Below are positions 24,964 through 38,624 of a stretch of 38,775 nt of DNA, in pieces (the first letter of the stretch is position 1; each line of letters opens with the position of its first letter). The DNA is taken from the IMG/VR virus record IMGVR_UViG_3300045950_000166, positions 1 to 38,775 of that record; one strand, given 5' to 3'. This DNA comes from a virus. A program made the translations under genes and the position numbers. Under the pieces are notes generated by a model. The model did not search any database. It saw only the letters and a list, made by a program, of their open reading frames with translations, and was not told where the DNA came from.

Positions 24964-25412
24964 CCATGACAGACACCGTCCTGGCTCGGCTGGCCGCGCT
25001 GAAGACCACGCCGACGCCCGACCTCAAGAAGCAGTGGCGCGAACTCTTCGACACGGAGGCGCCGCCTTACAATCGGCGTTTCCTCGAAAGCCGGCTCGCC
25101 TATCGGATCCAGGAATTGGCCTATGGCGGTTTGAAGCCCGCGACCGTCGAGCGCCTCGAGGCCCTGGGCGAGCAGCTCGACGGTGGCAACATCGTGCTGC
25201 GCCGGATCCGCGCCGACGACAAGCCGATCGCCGGCACGCGGCTGATCCGCGAATGGCAGGGCGTCGAGCACACCGTCACGGTGCTGAACGACGGTTATGA
25301 ATGGCAGGGGCGGCCTTACCGCTCGCTCTCCGCCATCGCGCGCGCCATCACCGGCACCCGCTGGAACGGCTGGATCTTCTTCGGCCTCAAGAACCGGCGA
25401 GGCCAAGCATGA
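24960..25412 (+). CDS. DUF2924 family protein
   Basis: 150 aa from the ATG at 24960 with AAGGAG five bases upstream (MTMTDTVLARLAALKTTPTP). The signature DLKKQWRELFDTEAPPYNRR, followed by FLESRLAYRIQELAYGGLKP and a C-terminal YRSLSAIARAITGTRWNGWI with FFGLK, is unmistakable DUF2924. The C-terminal part is a small RAMA-like/wHTH unit. These proteins are almost always encoded just before a large serine recombinase and probably assist it, perhaps as a directionality or DNA-binding factor. It overlaps the recombinase start by four bases. Confidence 0.92.
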   Translation: MTMTDTVLARLAALKTTPTPDLKKQWRELFDTEAPPYNRRFLESRLAYRIQELAYGGLKPATVERLEALGEQLDGGNIVLRRIRADDKPIAGTRLIREWQGVEHTVTVLNDGYEWQGRPYRSLSAIARAITGTRWNGWIFFGLKNRRGQA

Positions 25413-26740
25413 CGAAATCACCCGCATCCACCAAATCTATCCGGAAGCTGCGCTGCGCGGTCTATACGCGCAAGTCGACGGAAGAAGGGCTGGAGATGGA
25501 ATTCAACAGCCTCGACGCCCAGCGCGAGGCTTGTGAGGCCTATATCGCCAGCCAGAAGGCCGAAGGCTGGGTGCTCTATCCTGAGTCCTATGATGACGGC
25601 GGCTTCTCGGGCGGCACGCTCGACCGGCCGGCGCTGAAGCGCCTGCTCGCCGACATCGAGGACGGCCGGATCGACGTTGTCGTGGTCTACAAGATCGATC
25701 GGCTCAGCCGCTCGCTGATGGATTTCGCCAAGCTGGTCGAGGTGTTCGATCGCGGCGGCGTTACCTTCGTCAGCGTGACCCAGTCGTTCAACACCACGAC
25801 GTCCATGGGGCGGCTTACGCTCAACATCCTGCTCAGCTTCGCCCAGTTCGAGCGCGAGGTTATCGGCGAGCGCATCCGGGACAAGATCGCCGCCTCGCGC
25901 AAACGCGGCATGTGGATGGGCGGCTTCGTGCCGCTCGGCTACGAGGTCAGGGACCGCAAGCTGGTGATCAATGATGCCGAGGCCGCGACGGTCCGGATGA
26001 TCTTCGAGCGCTTCGTCGAGGTGGGTTCGGCGACGGCGCTGGCTCGGGCGCTCGCCGCCGAGGGTGTGCGGACGCGGCGCGGACGGCTCGTCGACAAGGG
26101 GTTTCTCTACAAGCTGCTCAACAACCGGGTTTATATCGGTGACGCCGTGCACAAGGGCACGGCCTATCCCGGCGAGCACGAAGCCATCATCACGCGCGCC
26201 TTGTGGGACAAGGTGCACGGAATCCTGCGCGAAAGCCCGAGGATGCGCGCGGGCCGGACACGGGCCGCGACCCCGGCTCTTCTGAAGGGCCTCATCTTCG
26301 GGCCGACCGGCTGCGCCATGACGCCGACGCACACGCGGCGCGGTGACAAGCTCTACCGCTACTATGTCAGCCAGTCGGTCCTGAAGCGCGGCGCCGATGC
26401 CTGCCCGGTCGGGCGCGTGCCCGCCGCTGAGATCGAGGGCGCGGTTGTCGACCAGCTGCGCGGCCTCCTCCGGGCCCCGAAGGTGATCGTCGGCACATGG
26501 CGATCGGCACGACCCGAGATCGATGGTCTGTCCGAGGCTGAGGTCAGGGAAGCCCTGGAAGGGCTGGACCCGCTGTGGGACGAGCTGTTCCCGGCCGAGC
26601 AGGCGCGCGTCGTCCAACTCCTCGTCGAGCGCGTGGAGGTCGGACAGGGAGGCGTCGATATCCGCCTCCGCGTCGATGGGCTGGCTCGTCTGGTTCATGA
26701 GCTTGGCGGCATGGCCGACGATCCGCGGAGGGCAGCATGA
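25409..26740 (+). CDS. Large serine recombinase (integrase/resolvase family)
   Basis: 443 aa from the ATG at 25409 (MTKSPASTKSIRKLRCAVYT). The catalytic N-terminal domain (about 12-155) has YTRKSTEEGLEMEFNSLDAQ, with the nucleophile Ser in YTRKS, VVVYKIDRLSRSLMDFAKLV, and FEREVIGERIRDKIAASRKR. The recombinase domain follows (YEVRDRKLVINDAEAATVRM, VDKGFLYKLLNNRVYIGDAV). Then comes a zinc-ribbon-like segment (LIFGPTGCAMTPTHTRRGDK) and a C-terminal coiled part. It is the only integrase-type gene in the window and could excise or integrate the prophage or island. Attachment sites are not identifiable by eye. Confidence 0.95.
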   Translation: MTKSPASTKSIRKLRCAVYTRKSTEEGLEMEFNSLDAQREACEAYIASQKAEGWVLYPESYDDGGFSGGTLDRPALKRLLADIEDGRIDVVVVYKIDRLSRSLMDFAKLVEVFDRGGVTFVSVTQSFNTTTSMGRLTLNILLSFAQFEREVIGERIRDKIAASRKRGMWMGGFVPLGYEVRDRKLVINDAEAATVRMIFERFVEVGSATALARALAAEGVRTRRGRLVDKGFLYKLLNNRVYIGDAVHKGTAYPGEHEAIITRALWDKVHGILRESPRMRAGRTRAATPALLKGLIFGPTGCAMTPTHTRRGDKLYRYYVSQSVLKRGADACPVGRVPAAEIEGAVVDQLRGLLRAPKVIVGTWRSARPEIDGLSEAEVREALEGLDPLWDELFPAEQARVVQLLVERVEVGQGGVDIRLRVDGLARLVHELGGMADDPRRAA

Positions 26741-27141
26741 GAGCCGGCGACGCCGCCACCGATGACGGGCGCACGCTGACGGTCCGTGTGCCTCTGACCC
26801 TCCGGAAGCGTGGCGGGCGCAAGCAGGTGGTGATGCCCGAGGGGGCCTGTTGGGGCCAGCCCCGCCCGCGCGTCGACAACACCATGGTCAAGGCGATCGC
26901 CCGGGCCCACCGCTGGAAGCGCCTCATGGAGAGCGGCCGATTCGCCTCGGTGACCGAACTGGCCGAGGCCGAAAAGATCAACCAGTCCTACCTGTGCCGG
27001 GTCCTGCGCCTGACCCTGCTGGCCCCGGACATCGTCGAGGCGATTCTCGACGGAAGGCAGCCGGCCGCCTTGCAGATGGACGCTCTGTTGAAGCCCATGC
27101 CGCTAGAGTGGGCGGCACAGCGAGCTGCGCTGGGCCTCTGA
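26737..27141 (+). CDS. Helix-turn-helix protein of the recombinase cassette
   Basis: 134 aa, starting MRAGDAATDDGRTLTVRVPL. A basic N-terminus (LRKRGGRKQVVMPEG) is followed by a HTH-like segment SGRFASVTELAEAEKINQSY with LCRVLRLTLLAPDIVEAILD, ending in MPLEWAAQR. Such proteins regularly follow this type of serine recombinase and may act as excision or regulatory factors. The start overlaps the recombinase stop by four bases. The gene ends 88 bases before the palindrome that opens the defence operon. Confidence 0.85.
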   Translation: MRAGDAATDDGRTLTVRVPLTLRKRGGRKQVVMPEGACWGQPRPRVDNTMVKAIARAHRWKRLMESGRFASVTELAEAEKINQSYLCRVLRLTLLAPDIVEAILDGRQPAALQMDALLKPMPLEWAAQRAALGL

Positions 27142-27228
27142 CGCCGATCGCCGGCCACGAAACCGCGCGCCCGTCAAGTTTCTATTGCCCGGCGATCATC
27201 TCTCCACTAGCGTTATCGAAGAGCCCAG

Positions 27229-27248
27229 TAACTAGGCATGCCTAGTTA
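27229..27248. promoter_or_regulatory. Perfect 20-bp palindrome, probable operator of the WYL regulator
   Basis: TAACTAGGCA is followed immediately by its reverse complement TGCCTAGTTA, with no mismatch and no spacer. It lies 30 bases before the GTG start of the WYL-domain gene, where a repressor site would block initiation of the whole defence operon. CapW/BrxR-type regulators bind such inverted repeats. The palindrome is seen; the partner is inferred. Confidence 0.75.
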
Positions 27249-27278
27249 ACGGACGGATCATGTCATTGGGAGTCCAGG

Positions 27279-28166
27279 GTGGCGACAGCGAAGGCCGATC
27301 TGCGATGGGGGGTCGAGCAACGACTCGAATTCATCGAGTTCCGGCTGTTTTGGGAGGGGCATGTGAACCGGGGCGATCTGATGGAGGCGTTCGGGGTGTC
27401 GGTGAATCAGGCGTCCACTGACCTGAACCGCTATATCGGAATGGCGCCGCAGAACATCCACTACGACAAGAGCGCTCGCGCCTATGTCCGCGGTGCAGAG
27501 TTCGCTCCACAGTTCCTGAAACCCGACGCGAACCGCTATCTCGCGCAGCTTAGATCAGTCGCCGACGGAATTCTGGATCGCGCCGATGCGTGGATCGGAC
27601 AGTTTCCCCCCTACGATGCAGCGCCGACGCCCGTGCGGGGCGTTAATGCCAAGACGCTGCGCGCAGTGGTCGCTGCGATCCGCCGGTCCGAAGCGATCGA
27701 GGTCAAGTATCAGTCGCTGTCGCGGCCGGAGCCGCGCTGGCGTTGGATTGCGCCACACGCAATCGGCTTCGACGGGTTCCGCTGGCATACCCGGGCGTTC
27801 TGTCTCAGCGACCGAAGCTTCAAGGACTTCCTGCTTTCGCGGATCATCGAGACCCGCGGCACCAAGCCAAGCGAGATGGGATCAGAGGCGGATCAAGATT
27901 GGAATGACGAAGTGGTGCTTGAGATCGGACCCCATCCCGATCTCTCAGATACCCAGAAGAAGGTGATCGCACTGGATTACGGGATGCGTGGAGGACGAGC
28001 GAAAATCCGGGTTCGAAAGGCGTTGCTCTACTACGCGCTCCGCAGGCTTGGCCTCGATACCGATCCGGCCGCGCGCCGTCCTCAAGATCAACAGATCGTA
28101 TTGCTCAATCGGGATGCAGCTGGCCCGAGCTTGCCGCGGCAGGACAATGGAGAGGTTCGGGTATGA
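27279..28166 (+). CDS. WYL-domain transcriptional regulator (CapW/BrxR-like)
   Basis: 295 aa. The GTG start at 27279 follows GGGAG by several bases. Residues 10-70 form a winged helix (FIEFRLFWEGHVNRGDLMEA, then FGVSVNQASTDLNRYIGMAP). Residues 115-190 are the WYL domain (AIEVKYQSLSRPEPRWRWIA, PHAIGFDGFRWHTRAFCLSD), followed by a WCX-like end with LALDYGMRGG-type VIALDYGMRGGRAKIRV. This architecture is that of regulators which repress BREX, CBASS and other defence operons until a ligand is sensed. It is the first gene of the operon, overlaps the next by four bases, and is preceded by a perfect palindrome. Confidence 0.9.
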   Translation: MATAKADLRWGVEQRLEFIEFRLFWEGHVNRGDLMEAFGVSVNQASTDLNRYIGMAPQNIHYDKSARAYVRGAEFAPQFLKPDANRYLAQLRSVADGILDRADAWIGQFPPYDAAPTPVRGVNAKTLRAVVAAIRRSEAIEVKYQSLSRPEPRWRWIAPHAIGFDGFRWHTRAFCLSDRSFKDFLLSRIIETRGTKPSEMGSEADQDWNDEVVLEIGPHPDLSDTQKKVIALDYGMRGGRAKIRVRKALLYYALRRLGLDTDPAARRPQDQQIVLLNRDAAGPSLPRQDNGEVRV

Positions 28167-31100
28167 GCGAGACATTCTTCGAACGCCCGATCCTGAACTC
28201 GCCCTACGAGTATCCGCGCCGACATTGGGAACTCGATGAGGACGGGCAGCCAACCAATCGGATCATCGAGACACGGCGCCGATCCGACCTCATCACCCCG
28301 GTTCCGAAGCCGAAGAAGCGCCGCCAGGGACGCGGCAATCAGGCTCAGATGATCTTTGGCGATGACACCGGCCTGTCATCGGAGGAGCAGGAGTACAACC
28401 CCACTCCGATCATCAACGAGGTCCGCACCTACGTCGAGGAATGGCGCAGGCTGCCCAACCCCGACCAGTGGCTGGTCACGCCGGAAACGGCGCGCCTGCT
28501 GACGCATTGGCGTCACCACAAATTCGAGAGTATTCGTCCATTCTTCTGCCAGATCGAAGCCGTCGAGACAGCAATCTGGCTCACTGAGGTCGCGCCGAAG
28601 CTCGGCGCACGGACGAAGAAATTCTGGGCTCACATCGAGGGCGGCAACGCGCAGGCCAATCCGGAGCTCATGCGCCTGGCGCTGAAGCTCGCCACCGGCG
28701 CCGGTAAGACGACCGTAATGGCGATGCTGATAGCCTGGCAGACGGTGAATGCTGTCCGCCATCCGAACAGCAAGCAGTTCTCGCGCGGCTTTCTGGTCGT
28801 CGCGCCGGGCATCACCATCAAGGATCGCCTGCGCGTCCTCATGCCCAACGATCCGGAGAGCTACTACCGGCACCGCGAGATCGTGCCGCCCGACATGCTC
28901 GCCGATATCGACCGGGCCAAGATCGTCATCACCAACTATCACGCCTTCAAATTGCGCGAGCGCATTTCCGTCTCCAAAGGCACCCGCACCGCCCTGGAAG
29001 GCTGGCGCGGCGAGACGCTGCAGACGCTGGAGACCGAAGGCCAGATGCTTCAGCGAGTCATGCCCGAACTCATGGGGCTAAAGAACATCGTCGTTCTGAA
29101 TGACGAGGCGCATCATTGCTATCGCGAGCGGGTGAAGGACGCCGAAGGCGAAACTGAAGCTGACCTCAAGGGCGAGGATAAGGACGAGGCCAAGGCAAAC
29201 AACGAGGCCGCCCGGATGTGGATCTCGGGGCTCGAGGCGGTCAAGCGTAAGCTTGGGATATCGCTCGTCTACGACCTCTCGGCCACGCCCTTCTTTTTGC
29301 GCGGCTCGGGTTATGCGGAAGGCACCCTGTTCCCGTGGACCATGAGCGACTTCTCCCTCATGGACGCGATCGAATGCGGGATCGTGAAGCTGCCGCGCGT
29401 TCCGGTCGCCGACAATATTCCAGGCGGCGACACGCCGAAGTTCCGCAATCTATGGGAGCACATCGGCAAGAAGCTGCCGAAGAAGGGCCGCAGCGCAGGC
29501 AAGTCGCTCGATCCGCTGAGCCTGCCGGCGGAGCTGCTGACCGCGCTCGAAGCGCTCTATGGCCACTATCAGAAAACGTTCGAGCTCTGGGAGAACGAGG
29601 GCATCGGCGTGCCGCCGGTCTTCATTGTGGTGTGCAACAACACCTCGACCTCGGAGCTGATCTACAAGTACGTCTCCGGCTTCCATCGCGAGAACGACGA
29701 CGGCTCCACGACGCTGGAGAACGGCCGCCTGGCGCTGTTCCGCAATTACGACGACTACGGAAACCGCATCGCTCGTCCGAACACGATCCTGATCGACTCG
29801 GCCCAGCTCGAATCCGGCGAAGCCCTCGACAAGGACTTCCGCGAGATGGCGGGCGACGAGATCGAGCGCTTCCGCCGAGAGATGATCGAGCGTACCGGCG
29901 ACGTCCACGCCGCCGACAGCATTGACGACGCCACGCTCTTGCGCGAGGTCATGAACACCGTTGGCAAGAAGGGTCGGCTTGGCGAACAGGTGCGCTGTGT
30001 CGTCTCGGTCTCGATGCTGACGGAGGGATGGGACGCCAACACCGTCACCCATATCCTCGGCGTTCGCGCCTTCGGCACGCAGCTGCTGTGCGAGCAGGTG
30101 GTCGGCCGCGGCCTGCGTCGTCAGTCCTATGACCTCAACGAGGAAGGGCTGTTCAACGTGGAGTATGCCGACGTGCTCGGCATTCCGTTCGACTTTGCTG
30201 CCAAACCGGTCGTCTCCCCACCCGCCAAACCGCGCGAGACGGTGCGGGTCCATGCCGTCAAACCGGACCGCGATGCGCTGGAGATCGTCTTTCCGCGCGT
30301 CGAGGGCTATCGCGTCGAACTGCCCGACGAGCGGCTGGAGGCGGCCTTCGGGCGGGATCACGTCCTCCATCTGACGCCGGAACTTGTCGGTCCATCTGTG
30401 ACCAAGAACCAGGGCATCATCGGCGAGGGTGTCGATCTGACTGTCGCGCATCTGGAGGACATGCGGTCCTCGACCGTCCTGTTCCACCTCGCGCGACACC
30501 TTCTCTACAACAAGTACCGCGATCCGGGAGAGGAGCCGAAGCTCCATTTGTTCGGGCAGCTCAAGCGCATCACGCGCCAATGGCTCGAAGGCGGGTATCT
30601 CAAGTGCTCGGGCGGAACCTATCCCGCGCAGCTGATCTACAAGGAGATCGCCGACATGGCGGCCGAGCGGATCAAGGCCGCCATCACTGAAACGCTCGCC
30701 GGCGATCGGCCGGTCAAAGCGATCCTCGACGCCTACAACCCCACCGGCTCGACGGCCTTCGTCAACTTCACGACGTCGAAGGAAACACGCTGGCAGACCG
30801 ACCCGCGCAAGTGCCACGTGAACTGGGTCGTTTGCGACAGCGATTGGGAAGCGGAGTTCTGCCGCGTGGCGGAGGCGCACCCCAAGGTTCGGGCCTACGT
30901 CAAGAACCAGAACCTCGGTCTCGAAGTGCCCTACCTGATGGGTTCGACGCCCCGAAAATACATCCCGGACTTCATCGTCCAGGTGGACGACGGCCATCCA
31001 GAACCGCTGAACCTCATCGTCGAGATCAAGGGCTTCCGCGGCGAGGACGCGAAGGAGAAGGCGAACACCATGCGCGCCTATTGGGTGCCGGGCGTCAACA

Positions 31101-31231
31101 ACCTCGAACGTTACGGCCGCTGGGCCTTCGCCGAGTTCACGGCCGTCTACGAGATCGAGGCGGAGTTCAACAAACTGATCGCTGCGCAGTGTGAACACGC
31201 TGCCGCAGCCGTCGTCGATCACGAGGTGTGA
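28163..31231 (+). CDS. Type III-like restriction endonuclease, BPTD_3080 family (helicase-nuclease)
   Basis: 1022 aa, starting MSETFFERPILNSPYEYPRR, the N-terminus typical of this family. Superfamily 2 motifs are in order: Walker A LATGAGKTT (Lys 182), DEAH-type NDEAHHCY (Asp 314), YDLSATPFF near 372 and EQVVGRGLRRQ at 644-654. A C-terminal PD-(D/E)XK nuclease has YIPDFIV with Asp 936 and VEIKGF with Glu 954 and Lys 956. It is comparable in size to EcoP15I Res (about 970 aa). It should translocate on and cut unmodified DNA together with the methyltransferase encoded two genes downstream. All motifs are intact. Confidence 0.92.
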   Translation: MSETFFERPILNSPYEYPRRHWELDEDGQPTNRIIETRRRSDLITPVPKPKKRRQGRGNQAQMIFGDDTGLSSEEQEYNPTPIINEVRTYVEEWRRLPNPDQWLVTPETARLLTHWRHHKFESIRPFFCQIEAVETAIWLTEVAPKLGARTKKFWAHIEGGNAQANPELMRLALKLATGAGKTTVMAMLIAWQTVNAVRHPNSKQFSRGFLVVAPGITIKDRLRVLMPNDPESYYRHREIVPPDMLADIDRAKIVITNYHAFKLRERISVSKGTRTALEGWRGETLQTLETEGQMLQRVMPELMGLKNIVVLNDEAHHCYRERVKDAEGETEADLKGEDKDEAKANNEAARMWISGLEAVKRKLGISLVYDLSATPFFLRGSGYAEGTLFPWTMSDFSLMDAIECGIVKLPRVPVADNIPGGDTPKFRNLWEHIGKKLPKKGRSAGKSLDPLSLPAELLTALEALYGHYQKTFELWENEGIGVPPVFIVVCNNTSTSELIYKYVSGFHRENDDGSTTLENGRLALFRNYDDYGNRIARPNTILIDSAQLESGEALDKDFREMAGDEIERFRREMIERTGDVHAADSIDDATLLREVMNTVGKKGRLGEQVRCVVSVSMLTEGWDANTVTHILGVRAFGTQLLCEQVVGRGLRRQSYDLNEEGLFNVEYADVLGIPFDFAAKPVVSPPAKPRETVRVHAVKPDRDALEIVFPRVEGYRVELPDERLEAAFGRDHVLHLTPELVGPSVTKNQGIIGEGVDLTVAHLEDMRSSTVLFHLARHLLYNKYRDPGEEPKLHLFGQLKRITRQWLEGGYLKCSGGTYPAQLIYKEIADMAAERIKAAITETLAGDRPVKAILDAYNPTGSTAFVNFTTSKETRWQTDPRKCHVNWVVCDSDWEAEFCRVAEAHPKVRAYVKNQNLGLEVPYLMGSTPRKYIPDFIVQVDDGHPEPLNLIVEIKGFRGEDAKEKANTMRAYWVPGVNNLERYGRWAFAEFTAVYEIEAEFNKLIAAQCEHAAAAVVDHEV

Positions 31232-33153
31232 CCTTGGGGAAGCAGGCAGCATTCAAGACCAATCCGGTCAGCCTTGAAGAACTGCTCCGGCATTGCGGAA
31301 GCGGGAAGATCCAGCTTCCCGACTTTCAGCGCAGCTGGGTTTGGGATGAGGAGCGGATCAAGGGTCTGATCGCGTCGATCTCGCAAGCTTTTCCGGTCGG
31401 CGCCCTGATGACGCTCGAAGTGAAGCCGGGAGCTGCCGATACCTTCGCACGGCGCCCGATCCAGGGCGCCGATATTGTCGCGACCGCCGCCCCCGACCAG
31501 CTCCTCCTCGACGGCCAGCAGCGCATGACGTCGCTCTACCAGACCTGCCTGCGGCGCGAGGTGGTGCAGACGGTTACTCCGCGCCTCAAGCTCGTGAGGC
31601 GCTGGTTCTACATCGACATCCGCAAGGCCATGAACCCGGCCGAGGATCGCGAGAACGCCATCGTCTCCGTGCCGGAAGATCGGCGGATCAAATCGGATTT
31701 CGACCGGAAGATCGAACTCGACCTCTCCACGCCCGAGCTCGAATACCAGAATCTCATGTTCCCGCTGAACCAGGTGTTCGACTGGGACGAATGGCAGGAC
31801 GGGTTCAACGAATACTGGCTGGAGAAGGATCCCGAGACGCGCAGGCTCTTCAAGCCGTTCAAGGATGAAGTCCTCCAGAACTTCAAGGCTTACCAGCTGC
31901 CGGTCATCGCGCTGGGCCCCGACACCTCGCACGAGGCGGTCTGCCTCGTCTTCGAAAAGGTGAACACCGGCGGCAAGCCGCTCGATGCCTTTGAGCTCGT
32001 CACCGCTATGTACGCCGCCCGCGGGCATCGCCTCCGCGACGACTGGCTCGGCGCCGATGGCCAGGCCGGGCTGCAGACGCGCCTGCAGCTCTACGGCCGC
32101 GCGGCCGAGCAGAAGTTCGGTGTTCTGGAGAAGGTCGCCGCGACGGATGTCCTGCAGGCGATTGCGCTCCTGCACGGCGTCGAGAAGCGCGCGGCCGAAA
32201 TCGCCGCGGGCCGCAAGGAGTCCGAGCTCTCCGCCGTCCGGGCGACGCGCCAGTCGCTGCTAGACCTGCCGCTGGAGGCCTATCTGAAGCACCGTGGCGC
32301 GGTCGAGGACGGGTTCAAGGCGGCTGCCCGCTTCCTCCGCCAGAACCACATCTACCGCGTCATCGACTTGCCCTATCAGGGCCAGCTCGTCCCGTTCGCC
32401 GCGATCCTCGCGATCATCGGCCCGAAATTCGACCATGCCGCGGTTCGCGACCGGCTGGCGCGCTGGTTCTGGTGCGGCATCTTCGGCGAGCTATACGGGT
32501 CCGCCATCGAATCCCGCTTCGCCAAGGACGTGCTCGAAGTCCCCGCCTGGCTCGATGGCGGGCCCGAGCCCAGCACCATCACCGAAGGGCGTTTCCGCCC
32601 CGAACGGCTGCGCACGCTGCGCACCCGCCTCTCCGCCGCCTACAAGGGCATCCACGCCCTGCTGATGGCCGAGGGGGCGATCGATTTCCGTTCGGGCCAG
32701 CCCTACGGCCAGACGGTGTTCTTCGACGAGTATGTCGATATCCACCACATTTTCCCGCAGGACTGGTGCAAGAAGCAGAAGATCGAGCCGAAGGTCTTTG
32801 ACACCGTCGTCAACAAGACCCCGCTCAGCTACAAGACCAACCGCATCCTCGGCGGGGTCGCGCCTTCGGAGTATCTCTCCCGGCTGGAGATGGGCGGCAA
32901 GGATACGCCGCCCATCGCGCCCGCCGCGCTGGACGAATACCTCGCAAGTCACGCGATGGACCCGGCGCTTCTGCGTGCCGACGATTTCGAAGGGTTCATG
33001 GCGGATCGCGAGGCGCGGCTCCTCGCCATGATCGCCAAGGCGACCGGCCACCCGGTCATCAAGGCCGGCGTGGCGCCCGAGGAAGGCGAGGATATCCCCC
33101 AGGATGACGAGGGCTTCGATCTGCCCGACGCGCAAGCAGAGGAGGCCGCGTAA
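31228..33153 (+). CDS. DUF262/DUF1524 (GmrSD-like) nuclease
   Basis: 641 aa with a GTG start that overlaps the Res stop (GTGA). The N-terminal DUF262 (ParB-like) domain has IQLPDFQRSWVWDEERIKGL near 28-48, LLLDGQQRMTSLYQ at 92-105 with the conserved DGQQR, and FEKVNTGGKPLDAFELVTA near 235. The C-terminal DUF1524 HNH domain has VDIHHIFPQDW with His 506-507 and VVNKTPLSYKTNRI near 527. GmrSD proteins cut modified (glucosylated hydroxymethylcytosine) DNA using NTP. Here the protein is embedded between Res and Mod subunits, so it may add a modified-DNA branch or a second nuclease to the system. The acidic tail (EEGEDIPQDDEGFDLPDAQA) is odd. Confidence 0.9.
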   Translation: MTLGKQAAFKTNPVSLEELLRHCGSGKIQLPDFQRSWVWDEERIKGLIASISQAFPVGALMTLEVKPGAADTFARRPIQGADIVATAAPDQLLLDGQQRMTSLYQTCLRREVVQTVTPRLKLVRRWFYIDIRKAMNPAEDRENAIVSVPEDRRIKSDFDRKIELDLSTPELEYQNLMFPLNQVFDWDEWQDGFNEYWLEKDPETRRLFKPFKDEVLQNFKAYQLPVIALGPDTSHEAVCLVFEKVNTGGKPLDAFELVTAMYAARGHRLRDDWLGADGQAGLQTRLQLYGRAAEQKFGVLEKVAATDVLQAIALLHGVEKRAAEIAAGRKESELSAVRATRQSLLDLPLEAYLKHRGAVEDGFKAAARFLRQNHIYRVIDLPYQGQLVPFAAILAIIGPKFDHAAVRDRLARWFWCGIFGELYGSAIESRFAKDVLEVPAWLDGGPEPSTITEGRFRPERLRTLRTRLSAAYKGIHALLMAEGAIDFRSGQPYGQTVFFDEYVDIHHIFPQDWCKKQKIEPKVFDTVVNKTPLSYKTNRILGGVAPSEYLSRLEMGGKDTPPIAPAALDEYLASHAMDPALLRADDFEGFMADREARLLAMIAKATGHPVIKAGVAPEEGEDIPQDDEGFDLPDAQAEEAA

Positions 33154-36050
33154 TGGCGAAGAAACCGATCGAGGTCGAGGCGCTGAAGCACGACTCGGCG
33201 ACCCGCAAGAACATCCCGACGGCCGAGTTCGAGAGCGTCATGCGCGAGGCCGACAAGACGCCGATCCAGCTCGCCTATGAGCGGCGCAACCGCGACCTCG
33301 ATCCGCAGCTCGTCTGGCGCGGCAAGGACGAGCAGGACTGGTCTGACCTCATCGTCTCCGCTCCGCCGCTCTATATCCAGGAGAAGGTGCACCCCAAGGT
33401 CGTCATCGACGACCTGAAGCGCGTGTCGAGGGCGCGCGCTGAAGAGTCCGCACCGCCGGTGGCCGACCTCTTCGCCGATTTCAACGGACTGCGGGATGCC
33501 GAGGCGGCGACCGAGTTCTATCAGCACGACCAGCACTGGTCGAACCGGATGATCTCGGGCGACTCGCTCTCGGTCATGGCGTCACTGGCCGAGCGCGAGG
33601 GGTTGCGCGGTCAGGTGCAGTGCATCTATTTTGACCCGCCCTATGGCATCAAGTTCAACTCGAACTTCCAGTGGTCCACCACGTCGCGCGACGTGAAAGA
33701 CGGCGCCAAGGACCATGTGACGCGCGAGCCCGAACAGGTGCGCGCCTTCCGCGACACCTGGAAGGACGGCATCCACTCCTACCTGACGTATCTGCGCGAC
33801 CGGCTGACCGTGGCGCGCGACCTGTTGCACGAGAGCGGCAGCATCTTTGTGCAGATCGGCGACGAGAACGTCCATCGCGTGCGTGCGCTGTTGGATGAGG
33901 TGTTTGGGGAAGACAATTTCTGTTCTCTGATCCAAGTTCAGAAGACGGGGAGCCAAGCCGGAAATCTTCTTGCCTCAACCGTAGATTTCGTCCTCTGGTA
34001 TGCTCGTTCCAAGGATAAGACGAAGTATCGGCAACTCTACAATCAGAGGATTGCAGGGCATGTGTCTTCTGATCGCTACGATCAGATCGAGCTGTCCGAC
34101 GGTTCTGAGCGCCGCTTAACGAAAGAGGAGCTAACGCGCTCAGGTGGGATTCCAGAGGGCCGAATTTTTCGGCAGACCAGCTTAATCAGCTCCGGTCAAG
34201 CCTCTCAGGAGCAAATTTTTTATTTTCAAGGCAGAAAGTTCGGGCCCGGATCGGGTAGCCACTGGAAAACGACACTTCCTGGAATGGGCACGCTCAGTAA
34301 AGCCGGACGGGTCACTGCGGGAAGATCTACTGTCCGGTACAAACGCTACTTGGATGATTTCTCGGTGTTGCCGATCACTGATCGCTGGGAATCTATGCAG
34401 ATCGGTACTGGCTTGATTTATGTCGTGCAGACCAGCACGTCGGTTGTCGAACGTTGCATTCTGATGACCACCGACCCCGGCGATCTAGTGCTTGACCCCA
34501 CCTGTGGCTCGGGAACGACGGCCTATGTTGCCGAGCAGTGGGGACGGCGCTGGATCACCATCGACACCAGCCGAGTCGCCATCGCGCTGGCTCGCTCGCG
34601 CCTGATGGGCGCGCGCTATCCTTATTTTCTGTTGGCCGACAGCCCCGAAGGTCAGGCCAAGGAAGGCGAGGTCACGCGCACCGTCCCGAAGACCACACCC
34701 ACCCGCGGCGATATCCGCATGGGTTTCGTCTACGAGCGCGTGCCGCACATCACTCTCAAATCCATCGCCAATAATGCCGAGATCGACGTGATCTGGGAGC
34801 GGATGCAGCCCGCCGTCGAGGACGCGCGGGCTGCCCTCAACGCCGCCCTGAAAGGACACCCGGAGCCCTTCCAGGTCGAGACCGGCGGCCGCGCCGGCAA
34901 GACGATCGACTTTCGCAAGGAGGGCGAGGTCACGCTGCCCTCCGGCGAGCCCGCCCCCGCTGGCGGCTTCATGGAGTGGGAGATTCCGCGCGAGGCCCCC
35001 AAGGGCTGGCCCGAACCCGCCAAGGCCGCGCTCGCCCGCTTCTGGGAGGCGCGGATCGCGCGGCAGAAGGAGATCGATGCATCCATCGCCGCCAAGGCCG
35101 AGTTCGAATATCTCTACGACAAGCCCTACGTGGACAATTCCAGGGTCCGCGTTGCCGGGCCCTTTACGGTTGAAAGCCTCTCGCCCCACCGGACGCTGGC
35201 GGTGGACTGGAACGACGAGCTGATCGATGTGCTGGAGGCCGCCGAGGGCAAGCGCAAGGCGGCGGATCGCGACGAGAGCGTGACCGACTTCGCGCACATG
35301 ATCCTGGAGAACCTGAAGACCGCCGGCGTCCAGCAGGCGCACAAGGAAGATCGGATCACCTTCACCAGCCTGACCGGCTGGCCCGGCCGCTTCATCTGCG
35401 CCGAGGGCGCCTTCATGGAGGGCGATCGCCAGAAGCGCGCCGGCATCTTCATCGGTCCCGAATTCGGTACCGTCAGCCGCCCCGATCTGGTAGCTGCGGC
35501 CCGCGAGGCGGGCGATGCCGGATTTGATGTTCTGATCGCCTGCGCCTTCAACTATGACGCTCATTCGGCTGAGTTCGACAAGCTCGGCCGCGTACCGGTG
35601 CTCAAGGCCCGCATGAACCCCGACCTGCACATGGGCGGGGACCTGAAATCGACCAGCGCCGGTAACCTCTTCGTCATCTTCGGCGAGCCCGACATCAAGA
35701 TCGAGGATGCGGGCGACGGCATGATCCGGGTGAAGGTGTTCGGCGTCGACGTCTTCAAGCCGCAGACTGGCGAAGTCGTCTCCGAAGGCACCGACGGTAT
35801 CGCGCTTTGGATGCTCGACACCGACTACAACGAGGAAAGCTTCTTCGTCCGCCACGCCTATTTCCTCGGCGCGAACGATCCCTACAAGGCATTGAAGATG
35901 ACGCTGAAGGCCGAAATCGATCAGGAGGCCTGGGAAAGCCTGCACAGCGACACGTCGCGCCCCTTCCCGAAGCCGGCGTCGGGGCGGATCGCGGTGAAGG
36001 TCATCAATCACCTCGGCGACGAGGTCATGAAGGTGTTCTCAGTGGGGTGA
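33153..36050 (+). CDS. Type III-like site-specific DNA methyltransferase (Mod)
   Basis: 965 aa; its ATG overlaps the previous stop by one base (TAATG). DPPY is at 161-164 (YFDPPYGI) and the SAM-binding motif is LDPTCGSGTTAYVAEQWG at 447-464, beta-group order, as in type III Mod. The region between them (about 250-445) should be the target recognition domain. It is encoded by visibly AT-richer DNA than the flanks. The C-terminal 400 residues (ITFTSLTGWPGRFICAEGAF, GFDVLIACAFNYDAHSAEFD) exceed EcoP15I Mod (644 aa) and probably contact Res. It provides self-protection methylation and sequence specificity for the Res subunit. Confidence 0.92.
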   Translation: MAKKPIEVEALKHDSATRKNIPTAEFESVMREADKTPIQLAYERRNRDLDPQLVWRGKDEQDWSDLIVSAPPLYIQEKVHPKVVIDDLKRVSRARAEESAPPVADLFADFNGLRDAEAATEFYQHDQHWSNRMISGDSLSVMASLAEREGLRGQVQCIYFDPPYGIKFNSNFQWSTTSRDVKDGAKDHVTREPEQVRAFRDTWKDGIHSYLTYLRDRLTVARDLLHESGSIFVQIGDENVHRVRALLDEVFGEDNFCSLIQVQKTGSQAGNLLASTVDFVLWYARSKDKTKYRQLYNQRIAGHVSSDRYDQIELSDGSERRLTKEELTRSGGIPEGRIFRQTSLISSGQASQEQIFYFQGRKFGPGSGSHWKTTLPGMGTLSKAGRVTAGRSTVRYKRYLDDFSVLPITDRWESMQIGTGLIYVVQTSTSVVERCILMTTDPGDLVLDPTCGSGTTAYVAEQWGRRWITIDTSRVAIALARSRLMGARYPYFLLADSPEGQAKEGEVTRTVPKTTPTRGDIRMGFVYERVPHITLKSIANNAEIDVIWERMQPAVEDARAALNAALKGHPEPFQVETGGRAGKTIDFRKEGEVTLPSGEPAPAGGFMEWEIPREAPKGWPEPAKAALARFWEARIARQKEIDASIAAKAEFEYLYDKPYVDNSRVRVAGPFTVESLSPHRTLAVDWNDELIDVLEAAEGKRKAADRDESVTDFAHMILENLKTAGVQQAHKEDRITFTSLTGWPGRFICAEGAFMEGDRQKRAGIFIGPEFGTVSRPDLVAAAREAGDAGFDVLIACAFNYDAHSAEFDKLGRVPVLKARMNPDLHMGGDLKSTSAGNLFVIFGEPDIKIEDAGDGMIRVKVFGVDVFKPQTGEVVSEGTDGIALWMLDTDYNEESFFVRHAYFLGANDPYKALKMTLKAEIDQEAWESLHSDTSRPFPKPASGRIAVKVINHLGDEVMKVFSVG

Positions 36051-36081: not shown

Positions 36082-36537
36082 ATGAGCACGATGGGAGCAA
36101 AGGCGCCGGATCTCTCGGAGGAATGGGATCAGCAAAAGCTGCGGAACTGGATGGCGAATGCCCGCCGGCTGGGGCGGGACGATGTCTATCAGGCCGCCTT
36201 CCGTCAGTTATGTCGCATCGAAGGCCGCGACATTGACGACCCGCTCGCAGCCGATTTCGCCGCTGTCATGCGCGCGCTAGAAGAAGCGCTGAGCGAGCAG
36301 AACGGCAGAACCACTCGATTGTCACGCACCAGGCAGAAGCTCGCCCGCGCCGGTGTCCGCAAGACCCTTGCCGATCTCGCACTCAAGCCGAAACCGTCAG
36401 AGGGATTTCTGAAGCTGATGGAGTTCGGAATGGCCGACATGTCGGCAGAATCGCTGATCCTGAAATATCGGCAGGAGTTCGAGCCCGAGGTCGTAGCCGC
36501 GGCTGAACGGCGGCTGGCGGAGTATGGGGTGGATTAA
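36082..36537 (+). CDS. Small accessory protein of the defence operon, 151 aa
   Basis: It starts MSTMGAKAPDLSEEWDQQKL, 31 bases after the Mod stop, with a GGTGGGG stretch just before the ATG. The sequence is all-helical: RNWMANARRLGRDDVYQAAF at the N-terminus, RTTRLSRTRQKLARAGVRKT in the middle, and SAESLILKYRQEFEPEVVAA at the end. I recognise no named domain and no catalytic motif. Its helices and position between Mod and the helicase suggest an adaptor or specificity-like partner. The gene stops two bases before the helicase ATG, so expression is coupled. Confidence 0.8.
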   Translation: MSTMGAKAPDLSEEWDQQKLRNWMANARRLGRDDVYQAAFRQLCRIEGRDIDDPLAADFAAVMRALEEALSEQNGRTTRLSRTRQKLARAGVRKTLADLALKPKPSEGFLKLMEFGMADMSAESLILKYRQEFEPEVVAAAERRLAEYGVD

Positions 36538-36539
36538 GC

Positions 36540-38624
36540 ATGGAATTCCGGATTGCGGACACGTTCACCGACAGCCTGTCCAGGCTGACCGCGCAGGAAC
36601 AGAAGGCAGTGAAGACGACCGCCTTCGACCTGCAACTCGATGCCTCCGCGCCGGGCCTTTCCTTCCACAAGCTGGACCGCGCCAAGGACCCGAATTTCTG
36701 GTCGGTGCGAGTGAACGCCGACATCCGGCTGATCGTCCACCGCACGCAGTCGAGCCTGCTGCTCGTCTATGTCGATCACCACGACGACGCCTACAAATGG
36801 GCCGAACGGCGCAAGATCGAGCGGCATCCGACAACAGGCGCCATGCAGCTCGTCGAGGTGCGCGAGCGCGTCGAAGAGGTGGAGATCTTCAAGCCGAAGG
36901 AGGTCGCGGAGCCGGTTGCCCCCGCGCCGGCTGCGAGGCCGAAACTCTTCGACAATCTGCGCAAATTCGAGCTGATGGGTTTCGGGGTACCCGAGGAGTG
37001 GGTGGAGGACGTTCGCCGGGCGACCGAGGACACCCTGTTCGACATCATCTCCCATCTGCCGCAGGAGGCGCAGGAGGCGCTCCTGAAGCTGGCGGTGGGC
37101 GAGAAGCCGGAGCCGCCCGTGACGGCACCCGTGGAGGCCGATCCGTTCGCCCATCCCGATGCGCAGCGGCGTTTCCGGGTCCTGACCAACATCGAGGAAC
37201 TGCAGCGCGCGCTCGACTATCCTTGGGAGAAATGGGCGGTCTTCCTCCATCCCGACCAGTTGCAATATGTGGAGCGCAGCTATTCGGGGCCGGCCAGGAT
37301 TTCGGGGTCCGCGGGCACGGGCAAGACGGTGGTGGCTCTGCATCGCGCAGTGCATCTGGCGCGCAACGAACCACAGGCGCGCATTCTGCTGACGACCTTC
37401 TCCAAGGCGCTCGCCAATGCGCTGAAGGTGAAGCTGCAGCATCTGGCCGGAAACGAACCGGCCGTTTTGGCGCGGATCACCGTGCAGTCCATCACGGGCG
37501 TCGCCTATGATCTCTATTCCAGTCTTTTCGGGCAGCCGAACATCGCCTCGCCGTCCCTCGTTCACACTCTGCTCACCAAGGCGGCGGGACAGGACGATGG
37601 CCAGAAGTTCTCCTTGCCCTTCCTCGCCGGGGAATGGTCGGAGGTCGTCGATGCCTGGCAGATCGGAAGCTGGGAGGGGTACCGCGATGTCTCGCGCCTT
37701 GGCCGCAAGACGCGGATTGGCGGCAAGCAGCGGGAAGCACTCTGGTCGATCTTCGAGCAGTTGCGCGCCGGTCTCGCCGAGCGCAAGGCGGTGACATGGT
37801 CCGGCGTGTTCGGCCGTCTCGCGGCGCATTATGGCGCGACGGAGAAGCGGCCGTTCGATTTCGCGGTCGTCGACGAGGCGCAGGATATCAGCGTGGCCGA
37901 GGCCCGCTTCCTGGCCGCACTGGTTTCGCACAGGCCGGACGGGCTGTTCTTCGCCGGCGATCTCGGACAGCGCATCTTCCAGCAACCCTTCTCGTGGAAA
38001 TCGCTCGGCATCGACTTACGTGGACGCTCCCACACATTGCGGATCAACTATCGCACCTCCCACCAGATCCGCGCCCAGGCGGATCGGCTGCTGCCGCCGA
38101 ACATCTCCGACGTTGACGGTAACACCGAGAGCCGCCGCGGCACCATCTCCGTGTTCAACGGGCCGGCACCCGAGATCTGCACCTTCGATACGGCCACGGA
38201 AGAGAGCGAAGCCGTCGGGCACTGGCTCGCCGATCGCCTGAAAGAGGGTTGCCAGCCGCATGAGGTCGGCCTGTTCGTTCGAACCGGCGAGCAACTGAAA
38301 CGCGCGCGGGCCGCGATCAAGATCGCTGGCGCGTCGGGTGTCGAGCTGAGCGACAAGGTAGAGGCGGAAGCAGGCAACGTCGCGATCAGCACTATGCACC
38401 TCGCCAAGGGCCTCGAATTCCGCGCCGTCGCCGTGATGGCGTGCGACGACGAGGTGCTGCCCTTGCAGGAACGGATCGAGACCGTTGCCGATGAGTCTGA
38501 TCTGGAGGAGGTCTACAACACCGAACGCCATCTGCTTTATGTCGCCTGCACCCGCGCCCGCGACCGGCTCCTGATCACCGGCGTCGATCCGGCCTCCGAG
38601 TTCCTCGACGATCTGGCGCGATAG
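36540..38624 (+). CDS. Superfamily 1 (UvrD-like) helicase fused to N-terminal RelE/ParE-like domain
   Basis: 694 aa. Residues 1-95 read like a RelE/ParE toxin fold: FTDSLSRLTAQEQKAVKTTA, FHKLDRAKDPNFWSVRVNAD, then IRLIVHRTQSSLLLVYVDHH and DDAYKWAERR. A linker follows, then UvrD-like motifs: GSAGTGKTVVALHRAVHLAR (Walker A, about 257-265), FAVVDEAQDISVAEARFLAA, FAGDLGQRIFQQPFSW, LRINYRTSHQIR, STMHLAKGLEFRAVAVMACD and LYVACTRARDRLLITGV. No nuclease domain follows the last motif. The N-terminal part may be a toxin-derived regulator or interaction module. The helicase could process DNA ends made by the nucleases encoded upstream. It is the last gene of the defence operon. Confidence 0.9.
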   Translation: MEFRIADTFTDSLSRLTAQEQKAVKTTAFDLQLDASAPGLSFHKLDRAKDPNFWSVRVNADIRLIVHRTQSSLLLVYVDHHDDAYKWAERRKIERHPTTGAMQLVEVRERVEEVEIFKPKEVAEPVAPAPAARPKLFDNLRKFELMGFGVPEEWVEDVRRATEDTLFDIISHLPQEAQEALLKLAVGEKPEPPVTAPVEADPFAHPDAQRRFRVLTNIEELQRALDYPWEKWAVFLHPDQLQYVERSYSGPARISGSAGTGKTVVALHRAVHLARNEPQARILLTTFSKALANALKVKLQHLAGNEPAVLARITVQSITGVAYDLYSSLFGQPNIASPSLVHTLLTKAAGQDDGQKFSLPFLAGEWSEVVDAWQIGSWEGYRDVSRLGRKTRIGGKQREALWSIFEQLRAGLAERKAVTWSGVFGRLAAHYGATEKRPFDFAVVDEAQDISVAEARFLAALVSHRPDGLFFAGDLGQRIFQQPFSWKSLGIDLRGRSHTLRINYRTSHQIRAQADRLLPPNISDVDGNTESRRGTISVFNGPAPEICTFDTATEESEAVGHWLADRLKEGCQPHEVGLFVRTGEQLKRARAAIKIAGASGVELSDKVEAEAGNVAISTMHLAKGLEFRAVAVMACDDEVLPLQERIETVADESDLEEVYNTERHLLYVACTRARDRLLITGVDPASEFLDDLAR

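Follow-up and report, generated by a model that had tools for sequence, protein, structure and literature searches.

A perfect 20-bp palindrome, TAACTAGGCATGCCTAGTTA (27229–27248), stands in the leader of a gene for a WYL-domain regulator and, judged by comparison with homologous leaders, is very probably this regulator's own operator. The window, the whole stretch of DNA analysed here, is an IMG/VR virus record of 38,775 bases, in which family scans and PADLOC place a defence operon next to the WYL gene and its palindromic site. We have good confidence in the overall explanation, in which the palindrome makes up most of a composite operator of 26 bp, from which a dimer of the WYL protein would repress its own operon until a ligand releases it.

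The palindrome, its promoter and the operon behind it

The palindrome (dyad A) is strandless, has no spacer and is centred between 27238 and 27239. The original prediction described a perfect, spacer-free 20-bp palindrome 30 bases ahead of the WYL gene, and a check of the sequence bears out both statements, with bases 27249–27278 preceding the GTG start codon. The window holds a single copy of it even when up to three mismatches are allowed, and no further half-sites were found there at up to one mismatch. Zero-spacer palindromes with arms of at least 10 bases turned up seven times among 60 simulated windows, a rate of about 0.12 per window, and in 8 of 20,000 simulated 150-bp leaders of local composition. 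Across the window such a palindrome is only mildly unusual, while within a 150-bp leader chance is an unlikely source. Given the window-wide rate, perfection is weak evidence, and conservation among relatives was therefore used. The one other 10-bp inverted repeat of the window, also perfect but with an 8-base loop, lies at 32889–32916 within the GmrSD_N gene.

A generic scan for E. coli-type consensus promoters found none, and a family-specific comparison was used instead. The pattern TTG-N17-TAnnnT occurs in 28 of 31 dereplicated leaders, with a spacer of 17 in every one, against 13 of 620 shuffles. In the window it points to a putative promoter on the plus strand with a −35-like hexamer TTGCCC at 27185–27190 and a −10-like hexamer TAGCGT at 27208–27213. 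Fifteen bases separate the end of the predicted −10 element (27213) from the start of the dyad (27229), and this spacing is conserved: the distance from the −10 end to the dyad axis is 23–26 bases in 27 of the 28 promoter-bearing leaders. Spacing only places the predicted transcription start near 27220, so that the palindrome would cover about +10 to +29 of the transcript. A Shine–Dalgarno-like GGGAG (27268–27272, plus strand) follows 6 bases before the GTG codon and corresponds to conserved G-rich columns at +31 to +34.

The regulator itself (27279–28166, plus strand, 295 aa) is named by Pfam only for its WYL domain (PF13280, E 2.7e-10), whereas its homology to CapW spans the entire wHTH-WYL-WCX chain. 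Residues 5–280 of the 295 align to Stenotrophomonas maltophilia CapW (7tb6) with an E value of 8.4e-64, and the match to BrxR (7t8k) has an E value of 1.9e-44. In the available text of PMC9122588, R32 and S42/Q45/S47 of CapW are required for DNA binding; the equivalent R31, S41, Q44 and S46 of the window protein are invariant in 13 of 13 aligned sequences. Six of the eight residues lining the CapW ligand pocket (Y145, S147, W156, R169, H171, R183, F185 and R189) are identical (Y144, S146, R168, H170, F184 and R188), the two changes being R183 to K182 and W156 to R155. An AlphaFold monomer model was of low confidence (mean pLDDT 58.7) and was excluded from the evidence. By alignment, the protein is a clear relative of the CapW/BrxR group of defence-associated WYL repressors.

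Five further genes follow on the plus strand. A Res-like helicase-endonuclease of 1022 aa (28163–31231; ResIII 1.9e-08, RE_endonuc 1.6e-04, the latter below cut-off) overlaps the WYL gene by 4 bases and is itself overlapped by 4 bases by the gene for a GmrSD_N (DUF262-type) protein of 641 aa (31228–33153; PF03235, 4.9e-26). A Mod-like type III methyltransferase of 965 aa (33153–36050; PF01555, 1.2e-31; PADLOC MTase_III, 1307 bits) shares 1 base with the GmrSD_N gene, and a 151-aa protein with no family match (36082–36537) and a UvrD-like helicase protein of 694 aa (36540–38624; PF13361, 3.2e-17) complete the series. The overlapping or nearly abutting arrangement, by 4, 4 and 1 bases among the first four genes, fits a single transcript under the predicted promoter. 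Upstream, positions 1–28166 carry prophage-like genes (terminase, portal, head proteins, primase and a Cas4-type exonuclease), followed by the gene for a large serine recombinase and, after it, the WYL cassette.

Conservation and symmetry among WYL homologues

Relatives were drawn from 24 IMG/VR WYL loci, the best 80 of 314 loci in GTDB genomes and 16 of 690 plasmid records, and three loci with leaders shorter than 100 bp (L020, L021 and L109) were left out before counting. Among 102 leaders 100 bp or longer, the window's included, a motif search located a site in 99. The search found no site in L019, L022 and L023, whose WYL proteins are 60–62% identical to that of the window, and this counts against the operator reading; these three were excluded from the symmetry, promoter and footprint counts and kept as misses in the following one. 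After dereplication, 31 of 34 WYL leaders contain a related site; scored with matrices built without close relatives, each of these sites surpasses every one of 1020 null windows. The number of representatives is 31 or 36 below because identity was taken over 34 or 42 bases, respectively.

The axis at 27238|27239 is the best symmetry centre of the family, with a paired fraction of 0.65 against a median of 0.23 over all centres (36 dereplicated sites), and it is also the best centre in both subgroups. Pairing across this axis averages 9.5–10 of 10 positions in loci with a WYL identity above 90% and about 6 of 10 at 70–80%, compared with 2.3 of 10 for the median centre. Perfect sites are found at only 6 of the 99 loci: the window, four loci that share its sequence, and L058, whose perfect palindrome occupies the same position but differs from the window's in four of the ten pairs, with both members of each pair replaced. 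Outside the close relatives only this one independent sequence is perfect, and the four IMG/VR contigs with the exact 20-mer are all WYL homologue loci. The original prediction would have been refuted by a lack of conservation upstream of homologues, and the comparison shows the opposite, a related site on the same axis in the 31 of 34 leaders. The exact 20-mer is restricted to near-identical loci, and most homologues are followed by something other than a WYL-Res system.

Covariation between the arms is no more than suggestive. The observed paired fraction was reached by 20 of 200 column shuffles for all sites and by 19 of 200 for the AACT-type group, and covariation was rejected as proof of the dyad since it was not significant by shuffling. 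In counts of co-change, the dyad axis leads in the AACT-type group (0.28, next 0.17), whereas among all representatives centre 13 scores 0.20 against 0.18 at the dyad. Paired cells are only slightly more frequent than in shuffled columns, and symmetry and conservation were therefore counted as evidence in place of covariation.

The motif fades below about 65% identity, since 7 of the 16 plasmid homologues (45–78% identity) outscore every null window, and one of these does so by a narrow margin (4.8 against 4.7 for the best null). A scan of IMG/VR for degenerate palindromes returned 12 contigs, of which four were already known WYL loci; the remaining eight gave no WYL match in the fetched DNA, and a palindrome of such shape is therefore not diagnostic by itself. 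In L023 (WYL 61% identical), a perfect palindrome of another sequence, GGACTAATTATTAGTCC, lies at a similar distance from the WYL start, some 53 bases ahead of it, and is perhaps a diverged operator. In L112, L115 and L119 (WYL 52–68% identity), AGAAA-type half-sites face inward 31 bp apart rather than 14 as in the window; the difference of 17 equals the outer-dyad distance of the composite operator in Rhodobacterales. BREX genes lie behind the WYL homologues of L112 and L115.

The composite operator and its predicted mode of action

The conserved unit is larger than the 20-bp palindrome, comprising about 26 bp with three predicted half-sites. Column information content over 31 dereplicated leaders is highest from −16 to +9 around the axis, from 27223 to about 27247, and on this basis a strandless 26-bp block (27223–27248) of GCCCAG followed by TAACTAGGCATGCCTAGTTA is delimited; downstream, a less conserved spacer leads to the ribosome-binding site. 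Within this block lie three near-identical 9-mers on alternating strands: half-site 1 (TTACTGGGC, 27223–27231, minus strand), half-site 2 (TAACTAGGC, 27229–27237, plus strand) and half-site 3 (TAACTAGGC, 27240–27248, minus strand), with consensus sequences of TTTCTGGGC, AAACTGGGC and AAACTATGC, respectively, over the 31 representatives. Half-sites 1 and 2 also span an overlapping, strandless and imperfect dyad C, GCCCAGTAACTAGGC (27223–27237, 6 of 7 pairs, axis 27230), which is the second-ranked symmetry centre among the 36 dereplicated sites. The three best centres of the family are spaced 8.5 bp apart, and two of them are well kept in the window. The true axis might instead be that of dyad C, 8.5 bp off, and Rhodobacterales have a further dyad, B; both count against the operator reading.

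We propose that the conserved half-sites, whose consensus is about AAACTGGGC, are bound by a WYL dimer immediately behind the −10 element. An operator at about +10 to +29 overlaps the RNA polymerase footprint, and bound regulator would therefore block initiation or early elongation, which would silence the WYL gene together with the overlapping genes behind it. The autorepression that had been predicted is thus well supported by the site in 31 of 34 leaders, the promoter in 28 of 31 and gene overlaps that fit one operon. Release of the dimer by a ligand of the WYL domain, which is single-stranded DNA in studied relatives, would raise expression of the restriction–modification (R-M)-like operon, and with such a trigger DNA damage or phage DNA processing would be the expected signal here. 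That the operon is switched on during infection, as also envisaged originally, may be assumed by analogy with CapW. CapW is released after infection by phage lambda in the available text of PMC9122588, and that of PMC13373217 describes CapW and BrxR as repressing until they bind single-stranded DNA.

The resemblance to CapW, a CBASS-associated WYL repressor described from S. maltophilia C11, Pseudomonas aeruginosa PA17 and E. coli upec-117, includes full-length similarity and the retained binding residues and, in the portions of the sources available, a palindrome of about 20 bp in the regulator's own promoter region next to a defence operon. The CapW palindromes, according to the same portions, are 19–24 bp long, imperfect and overlap the −10 element, whereas the window's dyad has no mismatch and is centred 25 bases behind the −10. 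This overlap, a feature of the CapW subgroup, is absent from the window and counts against the operator reading. The cargo of CapW is CBASS, in contrast to the R-M-like operon found here.

BrxR of Escherichia fergusonii pEFER and Acinetobacter NEB394 is, in the text available, likewise a wHTH-WYL regulator encoded first in a defence operon whose leader contains inverted repeats. Those of pEFER are described there as lying just downstream of the predicted promoter, as in the window, and the Acinetobacter site as overlapping the −35 element, unlike the window's. BrxR repeats are given as differing in sequence and as having 5-bp spacers, where the window palindrome has none, and the window's operon is also set apart from BrxR systems by having no second operator inside it. 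According to the accessible part of Picton et al. 2022 (PMC9122601), BrxR homologues accompany diverse systems, type III R-M included, and inverted repeats lie upstream of 193 of 347 of them. A more distant parallel is RptR. According to the available text of PMC12255303, it is encoded first in an R-M defence island, acts there as an autorepressor and has a palindromic operator of several parts; it is an unrelated small protein, and its operator, unlike that of the window, combines three direct 9-bp repeats and a palindrome of 6 bp. The general idea that a CapW/BrxR regulator represses itself from a palindromic site has been published before in these sources, as far as their available portions go. 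An aligned operator, a half-site register and a promoter spacing for this alphaproteobacterial group were found neither in the accessible part of PMC9122601 nor in literature searches, and the register and spacing are undescribed in the literature found.

It is unlikely that the site serves another factor, such as a host or phage regulator, or that the WYL protein acts as an activator, even though PafBC and SiwR are described as activating WYL proteins in the sources at hand. The site travels with the WYL gene and not with the upstream or downstream genes, its position behind the −10 fits repression rather than activation, and the nearest relatives, CapW and BrxR, are repressors in their available descriptions.

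We consider it quite unlikely that the inverted repeat works as a hairpin in the 5′ leader RNA, as an attenuator or in translation control, rather than as a DNA operator. Being downstream of the predicted start, the palindrome would be transcribed, and an 8-bp hairpin is predicted for the window leader (z −3.0), which is one of 12 among the 31 representatives with z of −2 or below; moreover, G–T accounts for 37 of 109 non-Watson–Crick cells. The other 19 fall short of z −2 and the mean over all 31 is −1.2, with several positive values, whereas the sequence block is conserved in all. No Rfam match was obtained up to E 1 across 26900–27500, and no terminator-like sites were found in the region. 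With 19 of 31 leaders lacking a notable fold and Rfam silent, an RNA hairpin was rejected as the main role.

The regulator cassette and its defence cargo

Regulator, predicted promoter and putative operator form a portable cassette ahead of unrelated defence systems. In all eight of the loci L031–L038, nucleotide similarity to the window is limited to the leader from about 27208–27227 onward and the WYL gene, and the flanking genes differ on both sides. Among 98 homologous loci with a site, 82 have at least one gene of a labelled cluster within the first five ORFs and 16 have none, some of the latter being incomplete. The labels, taken from one representative per cluster, the window's own scans or plasmid annotation, include BREX (BrxA/B/C and BrxF/PglXI types), DISARM-like DrmA, Hma, Mza, Druantia-like DruE and R-M types.

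This distribution also makes it very unlikely that the upstream large serine recombinase (25301–26740) uses the palindrome for attachment or resolution. Sites of serine integrases are often imperfect inverted repeats close to the gene, the upstream protein has Resolvase and Recombinase domains, and its gene ends about 490 bases away. Against this, L031–L038 share the leader and WYL gene with no nucleotide similarity to the recombinase found in any of the eight, which speaks against the recombinase as the owner of the site and largely refutes this reading, and the palindrome keeps a fixed distance to a conserved promoter ahead of many unrelated cargoes. A chance palindrome, to which the window-wide expectation and the scarcity of perfect sites (five of the six identical in sequence) would lend some weight, is extremely improbable, as conservation of position, axis and half-sites across dereplicated homologues rules out what window-wide simulation alone does not.

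Many alphaproteobacterial defence operons, whose control is undescribed in the literature found, gain from this comparison a predicted WYL operator together with its half-site consensus and promoter. The same comparison predicts that a regulator–operator pair tested once would be transferable to BREX, DISARM, Hma, Mza and R-M cargoes. A further proposal, which we offer tentatively and regard as somewhat doubtful, is that in Alphaproteobacteria the whole cassette, about 1 kb long with promoter, three-half-site operator and WYL gene, is moved by recombination in one piece to positions ahead of unrelated defence systems, and that dimers can occupy its alternating half-sites in overlapping registers 8.5 bp apart, with a third dyad lying 8.5 bp further along in Rhodobacterales; if true, such registers could allow graded repression or a change of register between lineages.

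Three loci (L009, L011 and L060) have parts of 19–22 kb, the recombinase and the WYL gene in common with the window and carry other genes behind WYL, DrmA in L009 and MzaB/C in L060, as if the cargo had been swapped right after the WYL gene. The GmrSD_N gene (31228–33153) is 81–85% identical at the DNA level in 11 loci (L024, L059, L066, L069, L072, L074, L080, L083, L091, L092 and L103), where it lies near WYL without Res, mostly ahead of DruE-like or Hma genes, and looks like a separate module.
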